Notes under the pieces: model-generated | The model's input: only the letters and a program-made list of their open reading frames with translations | Databases searched by the model: none | Told to the model about the DNA's origin: nothing | Part shown: piece after piece, positions 43,139-49,644 of the stretch | Layout of the letters: every line of letters begins with the position of its first letter | Position numbering within the stretch: the first letter of the stretch is position 1 | Translations under genes and position numbers: made by a program | Source of the DNA: Candidatus Saccharimonadota bacterium | Lineage (GTDB): Bacteria > Patescibacteriota > Saccharimonadia > Saccharimonadales > Saccharimonadaceae | Reading direction: 5' to 3' | DNA length: 64,000 nucleotides | NCBI GenBank assembly: GCA_026395405.1 | Contig: JAPLYU010000001.1 | Span: 502,696-566,695, forward strand

Positions 43139-43213
43139 TGGGGATTGGCCAAGTGGTAAGGCACGTGGTTCTGGTCCACGCATTCGGGGGTTCGGATCCC
43201 TCATCCCCAGCCA
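43139..43213 (+). tRNA. tRNA-Gln (anticodon CTG), CCA encoded
   Basis: A complete cloverleaf: acceptor TGGGGAT/ATCCCCA, D-stem GCC/GGC, anticodon stem CGTGG/CCACG with loop TTCTGGT (anticodon CTG at 43171-43173), T-stem GGGGG with CCCTC, discriminator G and a genomic CCA. It reads CAG. Its 3' end is copied exactly 229 bp downstream and degenerately several more times through 49.5 kb. Confidence 0.95.
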
Positions 43214-43215
43214 AA
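43196..43215 (+). repeat. Putative attachment core, tRNA copy
   Basis: The 20 bp from the T-loop through the CCA end and two further A is repeated exactly at 43425-43444. Integrases often use this part of tRNA genes as attachment site. The role is inferred; no integrase gene is visible. Confidence 0.7.
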
Positions 43216-43249
43216 ATAAATTACGACCCGCGTGGTCGTTATTTATTTT
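43213..43249 (+). terminator. Long hairpin after tRNA-Gln
   Basis: AAAATAAATTACGACC and GGTCGTTATTTATTTT pair over 16 positions with one mismatch around CGCGT. It directly follows the CCA end and probably terminates or processes the tRNA transcript. Confidence 0.75.
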
Positions 43250-43424
43250 GAACTAAGGAATCGGGTTTTGAACCCACGGTTTTGCTAAGCAAAACGAAGG
43301 GGGTTCGGTGTAGTGCAGCGAAATAAAAATGTGTTTACATATTTTTATGAGCAAACGGAAGAGGCTTTAGCCGATATCCCTCATCTTGCTGTCGTAAAAT
43401 CGTGGGGTCGCGGAACGTGACCGA
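43250..43424. other. Gene-free spacer with tRNA fragments and palindromes
   Basis: No reading frame is convincing here. It holds GGGTTTTGAACCC, the 17 nt palindrome GTTTTGCTAAGCAAAAC, a copy of the tRNA T-stem GGGGGTTCGG at 43299-43308 and a partial 3' end TATCCCTCATC at 43375-43385. It looks like scrambled tRNA-derived debris between two exact copies of the tRNA end. Confidence 0.55.
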
Positions 43425-43444
43425 ATCCCTCATCCCCAGCCAAA
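43425..43444 (+). repeat. Exact copy of the tRNA-Gln 3' end
   Basis: This is the second copy of the 20 bp found at 43196-43215, 229 bp apart. It ends 27 bp before the first pilin-headed gene and marks the left edge of the cassette-like array. Confidence 0.85.
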
Positions 43445-43471
43445 CCTAATTACTTATGCTAAACTTAAAAT

Positions 43472-44887
43472 ATGAAATCTGTTCGCAGGTCTGATTCTTC
43501 TGGTTTTACTATTGTTGAACTTTTGGTTGTTATTGTAGTAATCGGTATTTTAGCGGCGATTACGATTGTGTCTTATGCTGGAATATCTAAAAAAGCCACT
43601 GAAGTTGGTTTGCAAACTGATCTGACAAGTGCGGCTAATAAACTTAAGATGTATTACGCAGAGTATGGTGTTTACCCGGACTCGCTTGATGGCAGTGGCT
43701 GTCCGACCGGATCGGTTACACCAGCTGATGCAAAGTATTGCGTGAAAGTTAGTCCTGGCAATACATTTTTATATTCTTCATCTAGTCCATATTCGACTTT
43801 TACTCTGAATGAGACTAATACGGCTAGTACGACAACTTACCAAATTGCTAACAACACAGCACCAATATATGTTCCGCCACACACGGGTATTTTGACGGCT
43901 TTGGGGACTCCGACAATAGCAGCTGGGGCTGGTCCATATAGTATTGTTGTATCGGCCGATGGAAGCTCGGTTTATGCCGCCAACTACAGTAATAATACGG
44001 TATCGATGTACAGCCGCAACACTAGCACTGGTTTGTTGACTGCCCTGGGTACGCCTACGATAGCAACCGGATCATATCCAATGAATCTTGCCATTTCAGC
44101 TGATGGTACCTCGGTGTATGTAGTCAACGCCGTCAGTTATACTATTTCTATGTACAGCCGTAACACTGGCACAGGTGCACTTACGGCTTTAGGTACGCCG
44201 ACGATAGCAACTGGAACGAGTCCATGGGGCGTTGCCATTTCAGCTGATGGTACCTCGGTCTATGCCGTTAACGCCAACGATAATACTATTTCGATGTACA
44301 GCCGTAACACTGGCACTGGTGCACTTACGGCCTTAGGTACGCCTACTATTGCAGATCCTACTCGGCCACGCAACATTGTCGTATCACATGATGGCTCTTC
44401 GGTATATACGGCAAATGCAACTTCAAACAATATTTCGATGTACAGCCGTAACACTGGTACAGGTGCTCTTACGGCCTTAGGTACGCCGACAATTGCAGCG
44501 GCAGGCACCCCATATAGCCTAGCAATATCAGTAGATGGATCTTCGGTTTACGCTGTCAATTCTAGCGGTGATTCCATCTCGATGTACAGCCGTAACACTG
44601 GCACTGGTGCACTTACAGCCTTAGGAACGCCGACGATAGCAGCAGGAACTACTCCGTACGGCCTGGATATATCGTCTGATGGTTCTTCGGTTTACGTTAT
44701 CAATCAAAACGGTGATTCCATATCGATGTACAGCCGCAACACCGGTACCGGTGCACTTACGGCCTTAGGTACGCCGACGATAGCAACTGGATCAAACCCA
44801 ATGACCCTAGCCATATCACCTGACGGTAATCATGTATATGCTGTGAATGGCTTCGGCAATACAATATCTATGTATGCACGCAATTAA
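43472..44887 (+). CDS. Pilin-headed seven-bladed beta-propeller surface protein
   Basis: A 471-residue protein. A type III prepilin signal ends SSG before FTIVELLVVIVVIGILA, with Glu at +5, so prepilin peptidase should cut it and the helix join a type IV pilus-like fibre. Residues 30-125 are a small pilin-like domain with two Cys. From about 135, seven repeats of about 48 residues (core ISADGTSVYAVN, linker MYSRNTGTGALTALG) form a YVTN/lactonase-like propeller. TAAACT is 6 nt before the ATG (extended TGCTAAACT), so leaderless. It is a paralogue of the next gene. Confidence 0.88.
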   Translation: MKSVRRSDSSGFTIVELLVVIVVIGILAAITIVSYAGISKKATEVGLQTDLTSAANKLKMYYAEYGVYPDSLDGSGCPTGSVTPADAKYCVKVSPGNTFLYSSSSPYSTFTLNETNTASTTTYQIANNTAPIYVPPHTGILTALGTPTIAAGAGPYSIVVSADGSSVYAANYSNNTVSMYSRNTSTGLLTALGTPTIATGSYPMNLAISADGTSVYVVNAVSYTISMYSRNTGTGALTALGTPTIATGTSPWGVAISADGTSVYAVNANDNTISMYSRNTGTGALTALGTPTIADPTRPRNIVVSHDGSSVYTANATSNNISMYSRNTGTGALTALGTPTIAAAGTPYSLAISVDGSSVYAVNSSGDSISMYSRNTGTGALTALGTPTIAAGTTPYGLDISSDGSSVYVINQNGDSISMYSRNTGTGALTALGTPTIATGSNPMTLAISPDGNHVYAVNGFGNTISMYARN

Positions 44888-44892
44888 ATTAT

Positions 44893-44923
44893 TCCTGAAA
44901 CACATCCACCAGCCCCAGCCAAG
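44893..44923 (+). repeat. Cassette-boundary repeat copy 1
   Basis: Reads TCCTGAAACACATCC then ACCAGCCCCAGCCAAG. It begins 5 nt after the pilin-propeller stop. The right half matches the tRNA-Gln 3' end at 16 of 20 positions. Confidence 0.75.
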
Positions 44924-44950
44924 CATATGTACTTATGTTAAACTTAAAAT

Positions 44951-46366
44951 ATGAAATCTGCTCGCAGGTCTAAATCTTCTGGCTTTACTATCGTCGAACT
45001 TTTGGTTGTAATAGTAGTGATTGGTATCTTGGCAGCTATTACCGTTGTTTCATATAGCGGCATAGCTAAGAAGGCTACTGAAGTTGGTTTGCAATCAGAC
45101 CTGTCTAATAATTCTAAAAAACTTAAATTGTATTATACCGAATATGGCACATACCCTGACTCGCTTGACACCAACGGTTGTCCTACCGGAAATGTTACAC
45201 CAGCTGACGCTAAGTATTGTATTAAGGTTATTACGGGCAACACGTTTGTATATTCTTCATCTAGTCCATATTCAACTTTTACTTTAAATGAGACTAATAC
45301 AGCCAGTACGACAACATATCGAATTGCTAATAACACGGCACCAACCTATGTTGTACCTCACACCGGAATATTAACTGCTTTGGGGACACCGACGATAGCG
45401 ACAGGTGCTGGCCCGCGAGGGCTGGTAATCTCACCGGATGGCAAATCGGCTTACGTTACAAATAATGATGATGGAACCGTATCAATGTTTGGTTGTGATA
45501 TCAATACAGGGTTACTGAGTCCGCTGTCGCCAGCAACAATTGCCGCTTCGGCGGGCACTCCCTACGGTATTGCTGTGTCGCCTGACGGTAAATTTGTGTA
45601 TGTTGCAAATTCAAGTACGCCATCCATATCGCAGTTTAGTCGCGACACTAGTACTGGTCTTTTAACTGCTTTGTCGCCAGCATCAGTTGTTACTACAGGT
45701 GTTAATCCGTACAAGATTGCCATATCGACTGACGGCAAGAACCTTTATTCGACTGGTGGCACCAACTCGGTTGTCCAGCTTAGCCGAAATACTAGCACAG
45801 GCCTTTTGACCCTCTTATCGCCAGCATCGATTGCGTTCGCCGCCACACCTTGGGCGATTACCATATCTCCTGATGGAAGTTCGGTATATGCAACTGATGC
45901 TGGCGGTTTCAGTGTAGTGCAATTTAACCGCAACAGCGGCACTGGTTTGCTTACAACAGTAATTGGCACGCCTGTTACAGGAACGCCTTATAGTGTTGCA
46001 ATATCGCCAGATGGTAATTCAGTCTATGTTCCCGGTTGTAGCGGTAATGTAATAAAAATGTTTAGCCGTGACGGAACCGGAGCTTTAACAGTCTTGTCTC
46101 CTGCGACAATTGCGACCGGTCCATGCCCGATAGATGTTGCCGTGTCAATTGACGGAGGCTCTGTTTACTCAGCTAATAACAATGGCGCCAGTAGTAATAT
46201 ATCGATGTTCAGTCGCAACACAGGAACCGGAGCTTTAACCGCACTGTCGCCAGCGACAATTGCGACCGGAAATAATCCACAATACATCGTCGTTTCTAAT
46301 GATGGCAATTTTGTCTATGCAACCAACCAAAGTGCGAATACGGTATCGATGTACGCTCGTAATTAA
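44951..46366 (+). CDS. Pilin-headed seven-bladed beta-propeller surface protein, paralogue
   Basis: Also 471 residues, with a nearly identical first 30 residues and promoter (TGTTAAACT, 6 nt before ATG). The pilin-like part is closely similar to the first copy, including NTASTTTYRIANNTAP. The propeller again has seven blades, but blade sequences differ more (linker FSRNTGTGALTALSPATI) and the blades are less uniform. The two genes probably arose by duplication of a whole cassette followed by divergence of the extracellular part. The likely role is adhesion or recognition on the fibre; no enzymatic residues are evident. Confidence 0.88.
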   Translation: MKSARRSKSSGFTIVELLVVIVVIGILAAITVVSYSGIAKKATEVGLQSDLSNNSKKLKLYYTEYGTYPDSLDTNGCPTGNVTPADAKYCIKVITGNTFVYSSSSPYSTFTLNETNTASTTTYRIANNTAPTYVVPHTGILTALGTPTIATGAGPRGLVISPDGKSAYVTNNDDGTVSMFGCDINTGLLSPLSPATIAASAGTPYGIAVSPDGKFVYVANSSTPSISQFSRDTSTGLLTALSPASVVTTGVNPYKIAISTDGKNLYSTGGTNSVVQLSRNTSTGLLTLLSPASIAFAATPWAITISPDGSSVYATDAGGFSVVQFNRNSGTGLLTTVIGTPVTGTPYSVAISPDGNSVYVPGCSGNVIKMFSRDGTGALTVLSPATIATGPCPIDVAVSIDGGSVYSANNNGASSNISMFSRNTGTGALTALSPATIATGNNPQYIVVSNDGNFVYATNQSANTVSMYARN

Positions 46367-46371
46367 TCCCT

Positions 46372-46402
46372 TCCTGAAACACATCCACTAGCCCCAGCCA
46401 AG
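46372..46402 (+). repeat. Cassette-boundary repeat copy 2
   Basis: Same sequence as copy 1 except ACT for ACC in the middle, again 5 nt after a stop codon. It separates the second propeller gene from the GC-rich block. Confidence 0.75.
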
Positions 46403-46443
46403 TATAAGCACTGTTAATCATGTGCTTATACTTGATTTCACCA

Positions 46444-46473
46444 AATAAAATAACCCCTATATCGCTAGGGGTT
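46444..46473 (-). terminator. Terminator of the GC-rich two-gene block
   Basis: On the minus strand AACCCCTA and TAGGGGTT pair around a short loop and run into ATTTTATTT. It ends the transcript that starts near 47650. Confidence 0.8.
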
Positions 46474-46544
46474 AGTGCGTTCGGAATTGGACCGAAACCT
46501 CGTAAGGAGGCTGTTAAAGCTAGTTGCATCGAAGCGTGTTGACG

Positions 46545-47117
46545 CTACTTCTTGTAGGGCGCCTGCAGTTCGGGGTTGTTGACGAGTGAATCGTCGAGCA
46601 AGTACTCGAATGCCTCGGCTCTCTCCTCGCAATACCACGGACTGACCGTCTTGGACACAGGATCGCTCCTCAGAATCCAAGTCGCTTCCGAGCTGGGGGA
46701 ATGGAACAGACCATCCGGGTCCATCTGTGCTACCACCGACGACTCCCAGTGGGCCTTGTTGGCCAGCTTGTCTGGGTTGGTGTATTCGGTGGAGTAGGGG
46801 ATGGGGTAGCCCATGGACTGGCAGACGAAGGTGAACTTGCCGGTCATGGGGCTGAAGATGTACGTGTAGGTGACCAGGTGAGCCTGATCACACAACTCGT
46901 AGATTGCCTTCAGGCTCCTCTTGACCTGGAAACGCGTAATGGCCGGCATACCGACAGCGTCGTTGGCCTGCTGGGCCAGTTGCTCCTGAGCATCGTTCAT
47001 CTTCGAATCGGACGCGCTCGAGTTCCCGCAACTCTCCGCCGAACATACGACGAAAACGAGTGCGAGCAGAGCGATCACGATGGCGACAGTGTAGACGCGC
47101 TTGGACTTGAACTTCAT
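46545..47117 (-). CDS. Lipoprotein-like or membrane-anchored protein in GC-rich block
   Basis: From the ATG at 47117, preceded by AAGGGAAG, the protein has 190 residues; upstream in-frame codons overlap the previous gene and are rejected. A hydrophobic helix (about 8-25) ends VCSAESCGNSS, so it may be a signal peptide or lipoprotein-type leader. The rest is soluble with several Cys (ICDQAH, FVCQSM, WYCEE). Base composition and codon choice (GGC, CTG, GTG, CGC) are far from the AT-rich neighbours. No family is recognised; it is co-transcribed with the gene 11 nt upstream. Confidence 0.7.
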   Translation of the reverse strand: MKFKSKRVYTVAIVIALLALVFVVCSAESCGNSSASDSKMNDAQEQLAQQANDAVGMPAITRFQVKRSLKAIYELCDQAHLVTYTYIFSPMTGKFTFVCQSMGYPIPYSTEYTNPDKLANKAHWESSVVAQMDPDGLFHSPSSEATWILRSDPVSKTVSPWYCEERAEAFEYLLDDSLVNNPELQAPYKK

Positions 47118-47128
47118 GTTCTTCCCTT

Positions 47129-47536
47129 TCAGAATCCGTTGTCGGACGGGGTCGTTGAGTTCGGACCGCCGGGCTGGATGCTTTCCAGCCAAGCGCGAAG
47201 ATTGGGCGTGCAGGCATCCCAGATGCTCTGGGGCCAGTCGGCGTCGTTGTGGTTCATCAGGTCAGCGATGGCCGCTTTCTCGGCCTTGTTGTCTGTCGCC
47301 AACCATTCTGTCCACGATTGTCCAGCCTGCTGGATTTGTCCCTGCTGGAACGTCTTAGTCTGCTCGAAGATCTGGCGCTGGACGTTGGCCGTCTTGACGC
47401 CAAAGACTTTGAGCATGAAAAAGTTGTTGCCCTGCACCACCCAGGTGATGCCCAGCGCGACCACCACTATCACTAGAAAGGTGAGAATGAGGGCCACTAT
47501 GTCTGAGACACCATCTTGGTTGCGGAGTCTTTTCAC
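47129..47536 (-). CDS. Single-helix protein with Gln-rich stalk in GC-rich block
   Basis: A 135-residue protein with GTG start after a perfect GAGGAGG. The N-terminus is RLRNQDGVSDIVALI, then a single helix (about 10-33), then an amphipathic Gln-rich stretch (QTKTFQQGQIQQAGQ) and a Trp-containing C-terminal part. The short basic leader before a long hydrophobic segment resembles pilin/archaellin-type anchors, but there is no Glu at the +5 place. The encoding DNA is GC-rich, like the next gene. Function is unknown. Confidence 0.65.
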   Translation of the reverse strand: MKRLRNQDGVSDIVALILTFLVIVVVALGITWVVQGNNFFMLKVFGVKTANVQRQIFEQTKTFQQGQIQQAGQSWTEWLATDNKAEKAAIADLMNHNDADWPQSIWDACTPNLRAWLESIQPGGPNSTTPSDNGF

Positions 47537-47612
47537 TTCGTCCTCCTCGAACGATTGTTGGTCATTGCATTACTAACTTTAAAGAGCGTGCACCTCCCGT
47601 ATTTTGGGCATA

Positions 47613-47633
47613 GAAAAAGCCATACCTCTATGG
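47613..47633 (-). terminator. Terminator-like hairpin in the leader of the GC-rich block
   Basis: On the minus strand CCATA and TATGG pair around GAGG and are followed by CTTTTTC. It lies between the promoter at 47657-47685 and the first gene, so it could attenuate the transcript. Confidence 0.5.
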
Positions 47634-47656
47634 AATGACTTATGCACTAGTTGTAT

Positions 47657-47685
47657 ATTCTAGCACTCTTTCATATATTTGTCAA
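47657..47685 (-). promoter_or_regulatory. Sigma70 promoter of the GC-rich block
   Basis: On the minus strand TTGACA (47685-47680) and TAGAAT (47662-47657) are 17 bp apart, a near-consensus promoter with a leader of about 115 nt. The adjacent repeat copy at 47694 lies just upstream of the -35. Confidence 0.8.
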
Positions 47686-47693
47686 CAGTATTC

Positions 47694-47722
47694 TTCTGAA
47701 ACACATCCACTAGCCCCAGCCA
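47694..47722 (+). repeat. Cassette-boundary repeat copy 3
   Basis: TTCTGAAACACATCC followed by ACTAGCCCCAGCCA. It is identical to copy 2 across 28 positions except near the left edge. It sits between the GC-rich block promoter and the small membrane-protein gene. Confidence 0.75.
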
Positions 47723-47732
47723 TGCACTGCCG

Positions 47733-47981
47733 CTATTTTCTTTGTCTTGCTAACTCTTCTTTTTCTTCCTTATCTAAGGCCGCCTCGGCTGTTCGATCAT
47801 CAATAATATCCTGAGCAGTTTTTGTTTTATCTGTTAATAGGTAGGCCACAATCAAAGCTATGACAAAGAAAAATAAACTTAGAATAAAAAATAATACAAA
47901 ACTATAGCCCTTCCTCCTGGCAACGAAAGCAGGCCAAAAGGCAAAAATTATCCATCCAATTGCTCCTAGTAAAAACCACAT
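47733..47981 (-). CDS. Small two-helix membrane protein
   Basis: An 82-residue protein with two helices (about 2-20 and 28-50), a basic ARRKGYS turn between them and a charged C-terminal tail (AALDKEEKEELARQRK). AAGGGA lies 9 nt before the ATG. It is the only gene between repeat copies 3 and 4, so by itself it makes up one unit of the array. No function is known. Confidence 0.6.
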   Translation of the reverse strand: MWFLLGAIGWIIFAFWPAFVARRKGYSFVLFFILSLFFFVIALIVAYLLTDKTKTAQDIIDDRTAEAALDKEEKEELARQRK

Positions 47982-48073
47982 ATTTATAATCCCTTGTTTA
48001 CTTTATATATTTTTACTATAGCACAGCTATTGGAATGATATTCGTGCAAGCTTGATAACCGACTTAAAATAAT

Positions 48074-48103
48074 TCTTGAAACACATCCAGTCGCCACTGC
48101 CAA
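48074..48103 (+). repeat. Cassette-boundary repeat copy 4 (degenerate)
   Basis: TCTTGAAACACATCC followed by AGTCGCCACTGCCAA. The left half is conserved, the right half has several changes against the tRNA end. It lies 62 bp before the FISUMP gene's promoter region. Confidence 0.65.
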
Positions 48104-48164
48104 AAAGAGTATTAAATAACTTCTTAAATGTCTTTTTCTAAAATACTTATGTTAAACTGAGTAC

Positions 48165-49091
48165 ATGAAATCTGCTCGCAGATCTAAATCTTTTGGATTT
48201 ACTATTGTTGAATTATTAGTGGTCATAGTTGTCATCGGCATCTTGGCTGCCGTTTCCATTGTCGGTTATTCCGGCATTACTCAAAAAGCCGTAAATAGTT
48301 CGCTACAATCCGACCTAACCAGCGCTTCAAAGCAACTAAAACTTTTCCAGGTCGATAACAGTAATTACCCAACTACCATAAGGTGTGATATAGCCGATAG
48401 CAACGTTAACAAATGCTTGAGGACTAGTTCTGGTAACAGTTTTGGTTATTCGGTCAGTAACGCAACTAATGCTCAAACCTTCTTATTAACTGATACCAAT
48501 GGTGCTAATGTCTATAGTCTAACCAATGATTCTGCACCAAAATCTTGGATTATTATTGGCTCTCAAACTTGGGCACCGTATAATCTAAACGTTGGTACAA
48601 AAGTTCTGGGTTCAACAAATCAAACCAATAACTCAGTAGTTGAGAAATTCTGTTACAACGACCTAGAGTCAAACTGTACTACCTATGGAGGTTTATATCA
48701 ATGGAACGAAATGATGCAGTACGTTACGACAGAAGGAACACAAGGCATTTGTCCAACAGGCTCGCATCTGCCCTCAGATAATGAATGGAAAACCTTGGAT
48801 AAAGCGCTAGGGATGGATCAAGCTACGGCCGACTTAACTGGCTGGCGTGGTACAGACCAGGGGACTCAAGTAAAAGCCGGGGGCACATCAGGGCTTAATT
48901 TCCCGATGGCTGGTTATCGGAATTTAACTCCATCGTGGATGAGCATCGATGCGCGTGAGTTGATTTGGTCTAGCACCGAAAATGGCGCTGCGGCCTGGCT
49001 CCGCAACACAGATTTGGCCAATGCTCAATTCCGTCGGGATGGCGGGAATGACAAGATGCAAGGTTTTTCGGTTCGTTGTCTCAATAATTAA
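48165..49091 (+). CDS. Pilin-headed FISUMP-domain protein
   Basis: A 308-residue protein. The first 35 residues repeat the prepilin head of the two propeller proteins (KSFGFTIVELLVVIVVIGIL, Glu at +5). Residues 36-125 are a pilin-like domain with a Cys pair. From about 130 comes a Fibrobacter succinogenes major paralogous domain: QTWAPYNLNVGTKV, GGLYQWNEMMQYV, GICPTGSHLPSDNEWKTLD and the closing GFSVRCLNN. FISUMP domains are related to C-type-lectin folds and are extracellular. TAAACT lies 6 nt before the ATG, so leaderless. Confidence 0.88.
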   Translation: MKSARRSKSFGFTIVELLVVIVVIGILAAVSIVGYSGITQKAVNSSLQSDLTSASKQLKLFQVDNSNYPTTIRCDIADSNVNKCLRTSSGNSFGYSVSNATNAQTFLLTDTNGANVYSLTNDSAPKSWIIIGSQTWAPYNLNVGTKVLGSTNQTNNSVVEKFCYNDLESNCTTYGGLYQWNEMMQYVTTEGTQGICPTGSHLPSDNEWKTLDKALGMDQATADLTGWRGTDQGTQVKAGGTSGLNFPMAGYRNLTPSWMSIDARELIWSSTENGAAAWLRNTDLANAQFRRDGGNDKMQGFSVRCLNN

Positions 49092-49182
49092 GATGTATTT
49101 TAGAGGTTTTGTAGATTAGGGTAATTTAATTTCCAGAGTGAAGTATTGACTATTTTTAATATAATGTTACAGTAATTGTATT

Positions 49183-49500
49183 ATGGATAAACCGTCGCAG
49201 CCGTCACCAGAATTTTCAGAACAAAAAGATAAACTATTACCCCAGGTAAGCCAGAAGGTAATTGACGCCTATGCCGAAGATGTGGGTAATTTTGATGAAT
49301 TAGCAATATTAAAAGCTATGGAATCGGAAAACCCAGGACTTACAGACGTGGTTAGGGGGTATATTTATGCAATTTATGAAAAAGATAAAGACCCTAACAA
49401 AATGAGAGATATGTGTACGTCGGCTGCACTAGTGTACAAACTCCTTAGAACTCAGGCCGAAGTTGATTTGATGAATCGCTCTGCTGTCGCAGACAAATAA
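49183..49500 (+). CDS. Hypothetical acidic helical protein
   Basis: A 105-residue soluble protein, mostly helical, rich in Asp/Glu/Lys, with one Cys (DMCTSAALVY). No signal or membrane segment. TTGACT then TACAGT with 16 bp between, and 9 nt to the ATG, suggests a leaderless start. The stop is 4 nt before repeat copy 5, so it is the last unit of the array. The function is not recognisable. Confidence 0.6.
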   Translation: MDKPSQPSPEFSEQKDKLLPQVSQKVIDAYAEDVGNFDELAILKAMESENPGLTDVVRGYIYAIYEKDKDPNKMRDMCTSAALVYKLLRTQAEVDLMNRSAVADK

Positions 49501-49504
49501 TTTT

Positions 49505-49530
49505 TGTAATACACCCACAATCCCAGCCAA
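49505..49530 (+). repeat. Cassette-boundary repeat copy 5 (degenerate)
   Basis: TGTAATACACCC then ACAATCCCAGCCAA. It keeps the CCCAGCCAA end and the distance of a few bases from a stop codon. It closes the array before the glutamine synthetase gene. Confidence 0.6.
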
Positions 49531-49644
49531 AAGTATCTTGTTTTAATTAATTGTGCTATAAATAGACATAAGTATTTATAGTTTTATATTAATTATAAAT
49601 TCAATAGATACTATTATTACATTATTTAAATATATGGGAGTTAC

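Follow-up and report, generated by a model that had tools for sequence, protein, structure and literature searches.

The window analysed here is a stretch of 64,000 nucleotides from a Candidatus Saccharimonadota bacterium (assembly GCA_026395405.1, contig JAPLYU010000001.1, positions 502,696 to 566,695), whose genome comprises 855 kb in 4 contigs. It contains a tRNA-Gln(CTG) gene followed by a structured unit of 229 bp and by five gene modules, each closed by a copy of a short repeat. In the following, R designates this 30-bp repeat and SE the structured element, loci and genomes carry L- and G-numbers respectively, and the five modules are numbered as cassettes. The array is laid out as follows (coordinates are those of the window).

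43139-43213, plus strand: tRNA-Gln(CTG) located by ARAGORN, the array anchor; its 3' CCCAGCC(A) is the shared core
43213-43441, plus strand: SE of 229 bp identified by a covariance model, with a terminator-like hairpin, several hairpins and a copy of the tRNA 3' end
43425-43444, plus strand: exact 20-bp copy of the tRNA-Gln 3' end (source 43196-43215), a sequence repeat
43442-44920, plus strand: cassette 1, 1479 bp; gene 43472-44887, a pilin-type N-terminus fused to a beta-propeller
44893-44923, plus strand: R site 1, from the R profile and a consensus match
44921-46399, plus strand: cassette 2, 1479 bp; gene 44951-46366, a paralogue of the cassette 1 gene
46372-46402, plus strand: R site 2, identical to the consensus, from the R profile and a consensus match
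46400-47721, minus strand: cassette 3, 1322 bp, G+C content (GC) 0.53; two open reading frames (ORFs), 46545-47192 and 47129-47536
47694-47724, plus strand: R site 3, from the R profile and a consensus match
47722-48101, minus strand: cassette 4, 380 bp; 82-aa protein, 47733-47981
48074-48104, plus strand: R site 4, diverged, from the R profile
48102-49528, plus strand: cassette 5; gene 48165-49091, a pilin-type N-terminus with a Fib_succ_major domain, and a 105-aa gene, 49183-49500
49502-49531, plus strand: terminal R site, degenerate, placed by eye and unlisted by the R profile

A sequence-only reading of this region had proposed an array of gene cassettes anchored on tRNA-Gln and separated by tRNA-derived repeats, and most of what it described was borne out. 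The 20-bp end of tRNA-Gln does recur exactly behind the gene, and the first 19 nt of the copy were also recovered by search. The repeats of about 30 bp that it reported at 44893, 46372, 47694 and 48074 are real and far above shuffles: the copies at 44895, 46374 and 47696 match CTGAAACACATCCACTAGCCCCAGCC with 1, 0 and 0 mismatches respectively, no match to CTGAAACACATCCACTAGCCCCAGCC occurred among 100 shuffles of the window, and the R profile gives 21 bits (E 4e-4) for the copy at 48076. A fifth repeat, given at 49505, is more doubtful, being degenerate and missing from the R profile matches of at least 8 bits; we accepted it because of its place alone, directly after a stop codon where the array ends. 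Taking the start points of that reading, three copies indeed begin 4-5 nt after a stop codon (stops ending at 44887, 46366 and 49500), and the modules differ in size, strand and composition, their GC ranging from 0.36 to 0.53 (whole window, 0.41).

The distribution of R was then evaluated in related genomes. Pattern searches allowing up to 3 mismatches and including the window's own genome returned 33 matches in 16 of the 28 genomes of the genus and 23 matches in 10 of 61 genomes drawn from the family (60 genera), and the reversed pattern, used as a control, gave no match in either set. The R profile, which was built over three rounds on a training set including many of the sites it reports, detected 58 sites at E<=0.01, each scoring 17 bits or more. 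When the 70 mapped loci (860 kb) were read backwards, the same profile yielded a single match of 6.5 bits and none at 17 bits or more. At the 21 loci with a tRNA-Gln gene, R lies downstream of it and on the same strand in 45 of 45 sites, a count in which many loci cut mostly downstream of the tRNA bias 'downstream', not 'same strand'; eleven loci (L008, L012, L017, L018, L162-L165 and L169-L171) were fetched around an R match, with both flanks where the contig allowed.

Within the genus, R is present at 13 of the 52 tRNA-Gln loci, and at 11 of 30 when at least 5 kb of downstream sequence is available, and arrays use both tRNA-Gln isoacceptors (CTG, TTG). The largest array, found in G089 (L162) at tRNA-Gln(TTG), comprises ten R sites, seven of them at E<=0.01 and the other three weaker; nine of the ten lie no more than 8 kb away from the tRNA. 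In several assemblies a break coincides with tRNA-Gln or is close to it (G033:C22, G033:C6, G033:C28 and G032:C1), which would be expected if arrays vary within the population or if the repeats confuse assembly. For 43 non-Gln tRNA genes on 18 stretches, the downstream sequence was searched for exact copies of the 8 nt that precede the final A, and no R-type array emerged; the matches consisted of SE tails, one repeat of about 23 bp located 8.4 kb away (L271) and chance occurrences. Since these 43 genes showed no R-like array, gene cassettes appear special to tRNA-Gln.

Inspection by eye showed that R and tRNA-Gln have CCCAGCC and ATCC in common in the same register, and one R copy (L169:7948-7972) starts with GTTCGAA, as in the tRNA T-arm. 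Contiguous identity between R and the tRNA end extends over only about 8 bp. The derivation of R from the tRNA end, claimed in the sequence-only reading, can be regarded as likely rather than proven.

One part of that reading had to be abandoned. The first unit behind the tRNA (43213-43441), which had been taken for a gene cassette, is a covarying structured non-coding element separate from the cassette system and holds no gene cassette. In the window, the match to covariance model R1 covers 43214-43442 (E 4.6e-11) and a terminator-like hairpin occupies 43223-43239. The SE family has 46 predicted pairs, 21 of which show changes on both sides, and pairing was found in 96.9% of the pairing cells, versus 83.8% in shuffles and 32-45% with the partner slid; these figures refer to a single subtype, whose 12 sequences were selected by eye among 21, and the joint alignment of all 21 folds poorly (-8.0 kcal/mol). 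On the four loci searched, all SE-bearing, Rfam at gathering scores returned tRNAs only. The SE model matches 24 of the 28 genus genomes, with 12 copies in that of the window. Outside the tRNA-Gln loci, 15 of 20 copies begin no more than 4 nt from a tRNA 3' end, the hosts being tRNAs for Val, Lys, Arg, Ser, Glu, His, Ile, Gly, Met and Leu, and for five of the 20 ARAGORN found no tRNA on the stretch. SE tails copy the host tRNA 3' end completely in five cases (L235, L244, L249, L252 and L253) and partially in others. With a length of about 190 nt (229 bp in the window), the element occurs at eleven tRNA types (Gln and ten more), sometimes in tandem, and also in L074 and L098; it looks like a small non-coding mobile element or a novel RNA.

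The movement of the gene modules was assessed by comparing arrays between genomes. In L069 (G030), tRNA-Gln(TTG) is followed by a cassette A and then by a cassette B, while L068 (G031) carries B, another unit and then A, with identities of 92% over 1108 bp for A and 86% over 529 bp for B. In both alignments identity starts 0-3 nt past CAGCC and stops at CAGCC or no more than 2 nt away, and the neighbours differ, an SE tail lying on one side and R on the other. As homology breaks at CAGCC, the crossover would occur in or beside CCCAGCC, which is common to tRNA-Gln and R. The second gene of A was also found directly behind tRNA-Gln(CTG) and SE in G034 (L059), where it shows 90% identity to L069 over 180 bp at a contig end. 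A relative of window cassette 4 (87% over 292 bp) is the first gene behind tRNA-Gln(CTG) and SE in G017 (L089), and chromosome similarity past the array resumes there about 6.4 kb sooner than in the window. A unit of about 470 bp is common to L068 (genus g1) and L163 (genus g63), with 84.6% identity and its left edge at the cut, and blastn returned nothing at E<=1e-3 upstream of the TTG genes in the same two genomes (L068 vs L162). The unit is far better conserved than the sequence upstream of these genes and therefore points to transfer between g1 and g63. In a further comparison, of L016, L018 and L061, L016 has no clean left R.

To judge from these alignments, the same units are found again in other arrangements, behind other tRNA-Gln genes and in other genera, the tRNA evidently keeps its own end and R appears to travel as the cassette 3' tail. 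Different cassettes between the same repeats at tRNA-Gln, with order, content and host gene varying among relatives and homology breaking at the repeat, are what the sequence-only reading had anticipated; repeat positions and gene content fixed in all relatives, which it had named as the opposite outcome, were not observed. At the level of sequence, the comparisons establish the anchor, the orientation, the unit boundaries, the reshuffling and the sharing between genera, and make cassette exchange by site-specific recombination anchored on tRNA-Gln very probable.

The anatomy of the cassettes was examined on the 51 intervals that end in R, 36 of which are no longer than 2.5 kb (median 774 bp). 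ORFs of at least 70 aa, picked automatically, number one in 21 of the short intervals, two in 10, three in 2 and none in 3, the pick being doubtful for window cassette 3, where the likely genes are two minus-strand ORFs. The direction of the ORFs is that of the array in 34 cases and the opposite in 13, and the last stop lies no more than 70 nt from the cut in 21 of the 28 cassettes with a same-strand ORF. Twenty interval proteins, hand-chosen from 47, were submitted to Pfam, which returned NUDIX (3, one just below cut-off), glyoxalase, AHSA1, PRA-PH, CDP-alcohol transferase, DUF1801, DUF1697, RibD_C, nucleoside deoxyribosyltransferase, aminoacyl-tRNA editing, PCC, DUF2268, GNAT, AAA/zeta-like kinase and PEMT, and left 3 of the 20 without a match. 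A second, mixed set of ten proteins gave a Pfam match in four, and PADLOC returned one ThsC-like match among 10 proteins.

Some further features of the units deserve mention. At 53 of 58 loci, the 60 nt that directly follow tRNA-Gln fold below -9 kcal/mol, versus 163 of 278 random 60-mers, and those behind R do so in 42 of 58 cases, a pattern as if units entering behind tRNA-Gln must bring their own terminator. In the window, the GC-rich cassette 3 (46400-47721) has a self-contained, foreign look, with a near-consensus promoter-like sequence at 47685-47657 and a strong terminator-like hairpin at 46474-46451, both on the minus strand. A pilin-type N-terminus is common to three cassette genes (43472-44887, 44951-46366 and 48165-49091) and their outer domains differ, a beta-propeller occurring twice and Fib_succ_major once; these genes possibly encode swappable surface proteins.

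We propose that the array is a tRNA-anchored gene-cassette system, in which a cassette would be a short unit, usually of one or two genes, with R (TTCCTGAAACRCRTCCACTARCCCCAGCC) at its 3' end. Cassettes, presumably as circles, would be inserted by a site-specific recombinase at the CCCAGCC core, the target being either the tRNA-Gln 3' end or an R already present in the array. Insertion at this core would leave the tRNA with its own 3' end and all tags pointing in the same direction. The recombinase would most likely be a large serine recombinase (LSR) encoded on integrative elements with the same core and with R at their end; it would act in trans on cassettes devoid of an LSR and would often be lost later.

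The candidate enzyme emerged from the elements found with the sites. Related LSRs are present in L011, L012, L067 and L169, with 56-61% identity to L011, and those of L011 and L169 display Resolvase, Recombinase and zinc-ribbon domains above Pfam cut-offs and are both accompanied by a G2P-type replication gene. The best NCBIfam match of the L011 LSR is XisF (104 against 375). In L012/L173 (one contig) and L174 the LSR gene directly adjoins tRNA-Gln, and R is the nearest exact CCCAGCC when searching from 50 nt after the tRNA; in L175, two chance-like CCCAGCC precede R, which is 9.5 kb away from the tRNA. In L174, the segment between tRNA-Gln and R also encodes a 421-aa protein, reverse transcriptase-like by eye, and then a 270-aa protein. 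In the window's own genome, tig and clpP are separated by an LSR element (L011) that is bounded by R-like sequence and R and has no CCCAGCC other than those at its two ends. As clpP directly follows tig in several relatives, including G007, G008 and G016 (by eye), this site is empty there. The stretch L011 3559-10240 holds the LSR element plus a cassette, and a pilin-like gene was noticed directly behind tig in G017 and G002 (by eye).

The association of these enzymes with tRNA genes extends beyond tRNA-Gln. An LSR frame overlaps a tRNA gene on the opposite strand in 17 of the 30 LSR loci read, from 43 matches listed, the tRNAs involved being Gln, Ser, Trp, Gly, Asn, Lys, Glu, Arg, Leu, Pro and Met. 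By our own count, about 40 of 53 related loci, mostly from Patescibacteria and Dependentiae/Babeliales, have a tRNA gene at the LSR end, tRNA-Asn being among the genes occupied by such related LSRs. The LSR frame often runs antisense into the tRNA 3' end in Patescibacteria and Dependentiae (L104-L133, L173-L225), and LSR relatives also occur in viral contigs (8 loci, 20-39% identity). The LSR is the most likely enzyme to move the cassettes, and we consider it probable that the exchange occurs by site-specific recombination with the LSR as its enzyme.

A number of observations weigh against this interpretation. On the side of the anchor, 13 of the 58 R sites come from stretches in which a tRNA-Gln was not detected (L011, L013, L016, L166, L167, L168 and L172), one set of them between tig and clpP, and the G017 relative of window cassette 4 has no recognisable R. 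On the side of the enzyme, among the 38 genomes searched, 4 carry a close relative of the Gln-LSR (E below 1e-200) and 20 an LSR related to it at E<=1e-20; G089, despite its extensive array, has no LSR relative at 1e-20; the LSR adjoining tRNA-Gln in L066 matches Resolvase only, with no Recombinase match; and the LSR element of L169 may end at a site weaker than R. Most arrays are without a Gln-LSR and therefore must borrow an enzyme or be at rest. As for the site itself, the sequence to the right of the cut lacks general conservation across the sites, and the modelled circle junctions of 30 cassettes showed no two-sided palindromic site (dyad) above shuffles. Four LSR-element junctions gave dyad peaks at different centres, without shuffle comparison. 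Two candidate site models were tried and dropped: a conserved right arm, AAGATGATTATGCTTAAA, is found in one cassette family, with a related pattern in only 10 of the 58 cassette starts, and an arrangement of the R arm and the cassette right arm as inverted repeats performed no better than shuffles at the 30 junctions.

The alternatives partly overlap the cassette system proposed here, and single arrays may mix histories. The same elements could indicate that LSR islands integrated serially at tRNA-Gln and eroded to single genes and old sites, the cassettes never having moved alone. In favour of this view, tRNA-Gln genes are indeed occupied by LSR elements with R at their end, an LSR near the Gln clade is missing from most arrays and some R copies are degenerate. 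The small units, however, are cleanly bounded at both ends, the last stop lies no more than 70 nt from the cut in 21 of 28, and two units recur whole in another order. Erosion can hardly be expected to preserve identical units whole in more than one order, and we regard this origin as unlikely.

Slightly less likely still is a cassette system of the same kind run by a tyrosine recombinase, for instance a resident Xer-like protein. The sequence-only reading had pointed to a tyrosine recombinase, and a Phage_integrase-family protein is indeed encoded in 27 of the 28 genus genomes, whereas the recombinase found with the sites is an LSR. The eight proteins tested resemble XerC/XerD/XerA models and three of them (L001, L134 and L149) pass the cut-off of NF040815 (Xer-type; described as 'site-specific tyrosine recombinase/integron integrase'); TTATGTTAAA, which we take to be similar to a Xer box, occurs at some cassette starts. 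A pattern related to this box, however, was found in only 10 of the 58 cassette starts, and the crossover maps to its left. None of the 31 tyrosine-recombinase matches listed falls, by coordinates, on a fetched tRNA-Gln stretch; the LSR elements, by contrast, adjoin the tRNA and have R at their end. A scan for dif-like sites gave matches no more frequent than the control and therefore decides nothing on Xer, which retains some weight because it is nearly always present.

Shuffling of the modules by homologous recombination between R copies, which are alike and in one orientation, is very improbable, as R measures about 30 bp and has about 8 contiguous bp in common with the tRNA end, yet units lie directly behind the tRNA or SE. 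That R might be an ordinary terminator or a chance match, as the sequence-only reading had allowed, has a negligible probability, since R does follow stop codons but folds no better than shuffles (z -0.3 to +0.9; three copies, six strands), has no T run and is absent from shuffled sequence. A role of R as a folding site was rejected on the same folding result.

Integrons are, to our knowledge, the only well-known machinery for assembling single promiscuous genes into arrays. Their cassettes usually hold accessory genes (NUDIX, GNAT, glyoxalase, DUF1697), as here, and their attC site is a folded imperfect hairpin with GTTRRRY and RYYYAAC boxes. Neither box was seen by eye in the R consensus. 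Integrons and clusters of attC sites lacking integron-integrases (CALIN) are described, in the sections of PMC8618304 drawn on here, as tandem cassettes, mostly of one gene and a 3' recombination site, with one primary site and with integrase-less arrays on record. The tRNA-Gln arrays share with them the tandem cassettes of a gene and a 3' site, the single primary site, the exchange at the site, seen here by genome comparison only, and the occurrence of arrays without the enzyme. They differ in that the anchor is a tRNA gene instead of attI, R is short and unfolded and the enzyme found with the sites is a serine recombinase; none of the eight genus tyrosine recombinases reaches the integron-integrase cut-off TIGR02249 (265), the best scoring 148 bits. 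The integron-like look reported from the sequence alone holds for the tandem cassettes and for the exchange at the repeat, and fails for the integrase and the folded site: the system works like an integron yet fails the integron tests on the defining parts (8 proteins and three R copies tested).

The staphylococcal cassette chromosome (SCC), moved by the LSRs CcrAB/CcrC, inserts serially at the 3' end of one gene, with recombinase-less elements beside recombinase-bearing ones; its units measure tens of kb and its target is a protein gene. The present system has in common with SCC the enzyme class, the serial insertion at the 3' end of one gene and the units devoid of recombinase. It departs from SCC in its units of about 0.4-1.5 kb in the window, in its tRNA target and in an LSR far below the Ccr cut-offs (L011, 47.9 vs 900 bits for CcrB and 24 vs 900 for CcrC). 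Tycheposons integrate at a tRNA gene with the tRNA restored. For tRNA-anchored genomic islands, the parts of PMC4383910 used here name tyrosine integrases and a displaced tRNA fragment at the far end. Similarly, our arrays have one end at the tRNA 3' terminus and leave the tRNA intact; single-gene cassette arrays with a separate conserved tag, in contrast, are not described in those parts of PMC4383910. The LSR integrative elements surveyed in PMC10083194 have targets grouped by protein gene clusters, and 'tRNA' is absent from its main text. The domain set of Resolvase, Recombinase and zinc ribbon is the same, whereas the family described here sits at tRNA ends, at variance with the elements in that main text. 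In open-licence papers we found no description of such arrays in Saccharibacteria, which says nothing on others, and the words Patescibacteria, Saccharibacteria and CPR are absent from PMC9668308.

We give an even chance to the full interpretation, namely that the arrays represent a second gene-capture system, unrelated to integrons, with a tRNA landing site, a short double-stranded tag derived from the tRNA and the serine integrase of visiting elements, spread through Saccharibacteria and carrying genes from one genus of these bacteria with reduced genomes to another. If this were true, cassette capture would have arisen more than once, here in a similarly shaped system with a tRNA gene and probably a serine integrase as its parts. 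Such a system would allow Saccharibacteria, whose genomes are near 0.6-1.2 Mb, to maintain accessory genes that change over time, pilin-like proteins as in the window among them, and the R tag makes the cassettes findable by simple search. Serial LSR insertion and cassette arrays each have precedents and their combination seems to be new; should the enzyme be confirmed, the system would deserve a category of its own.

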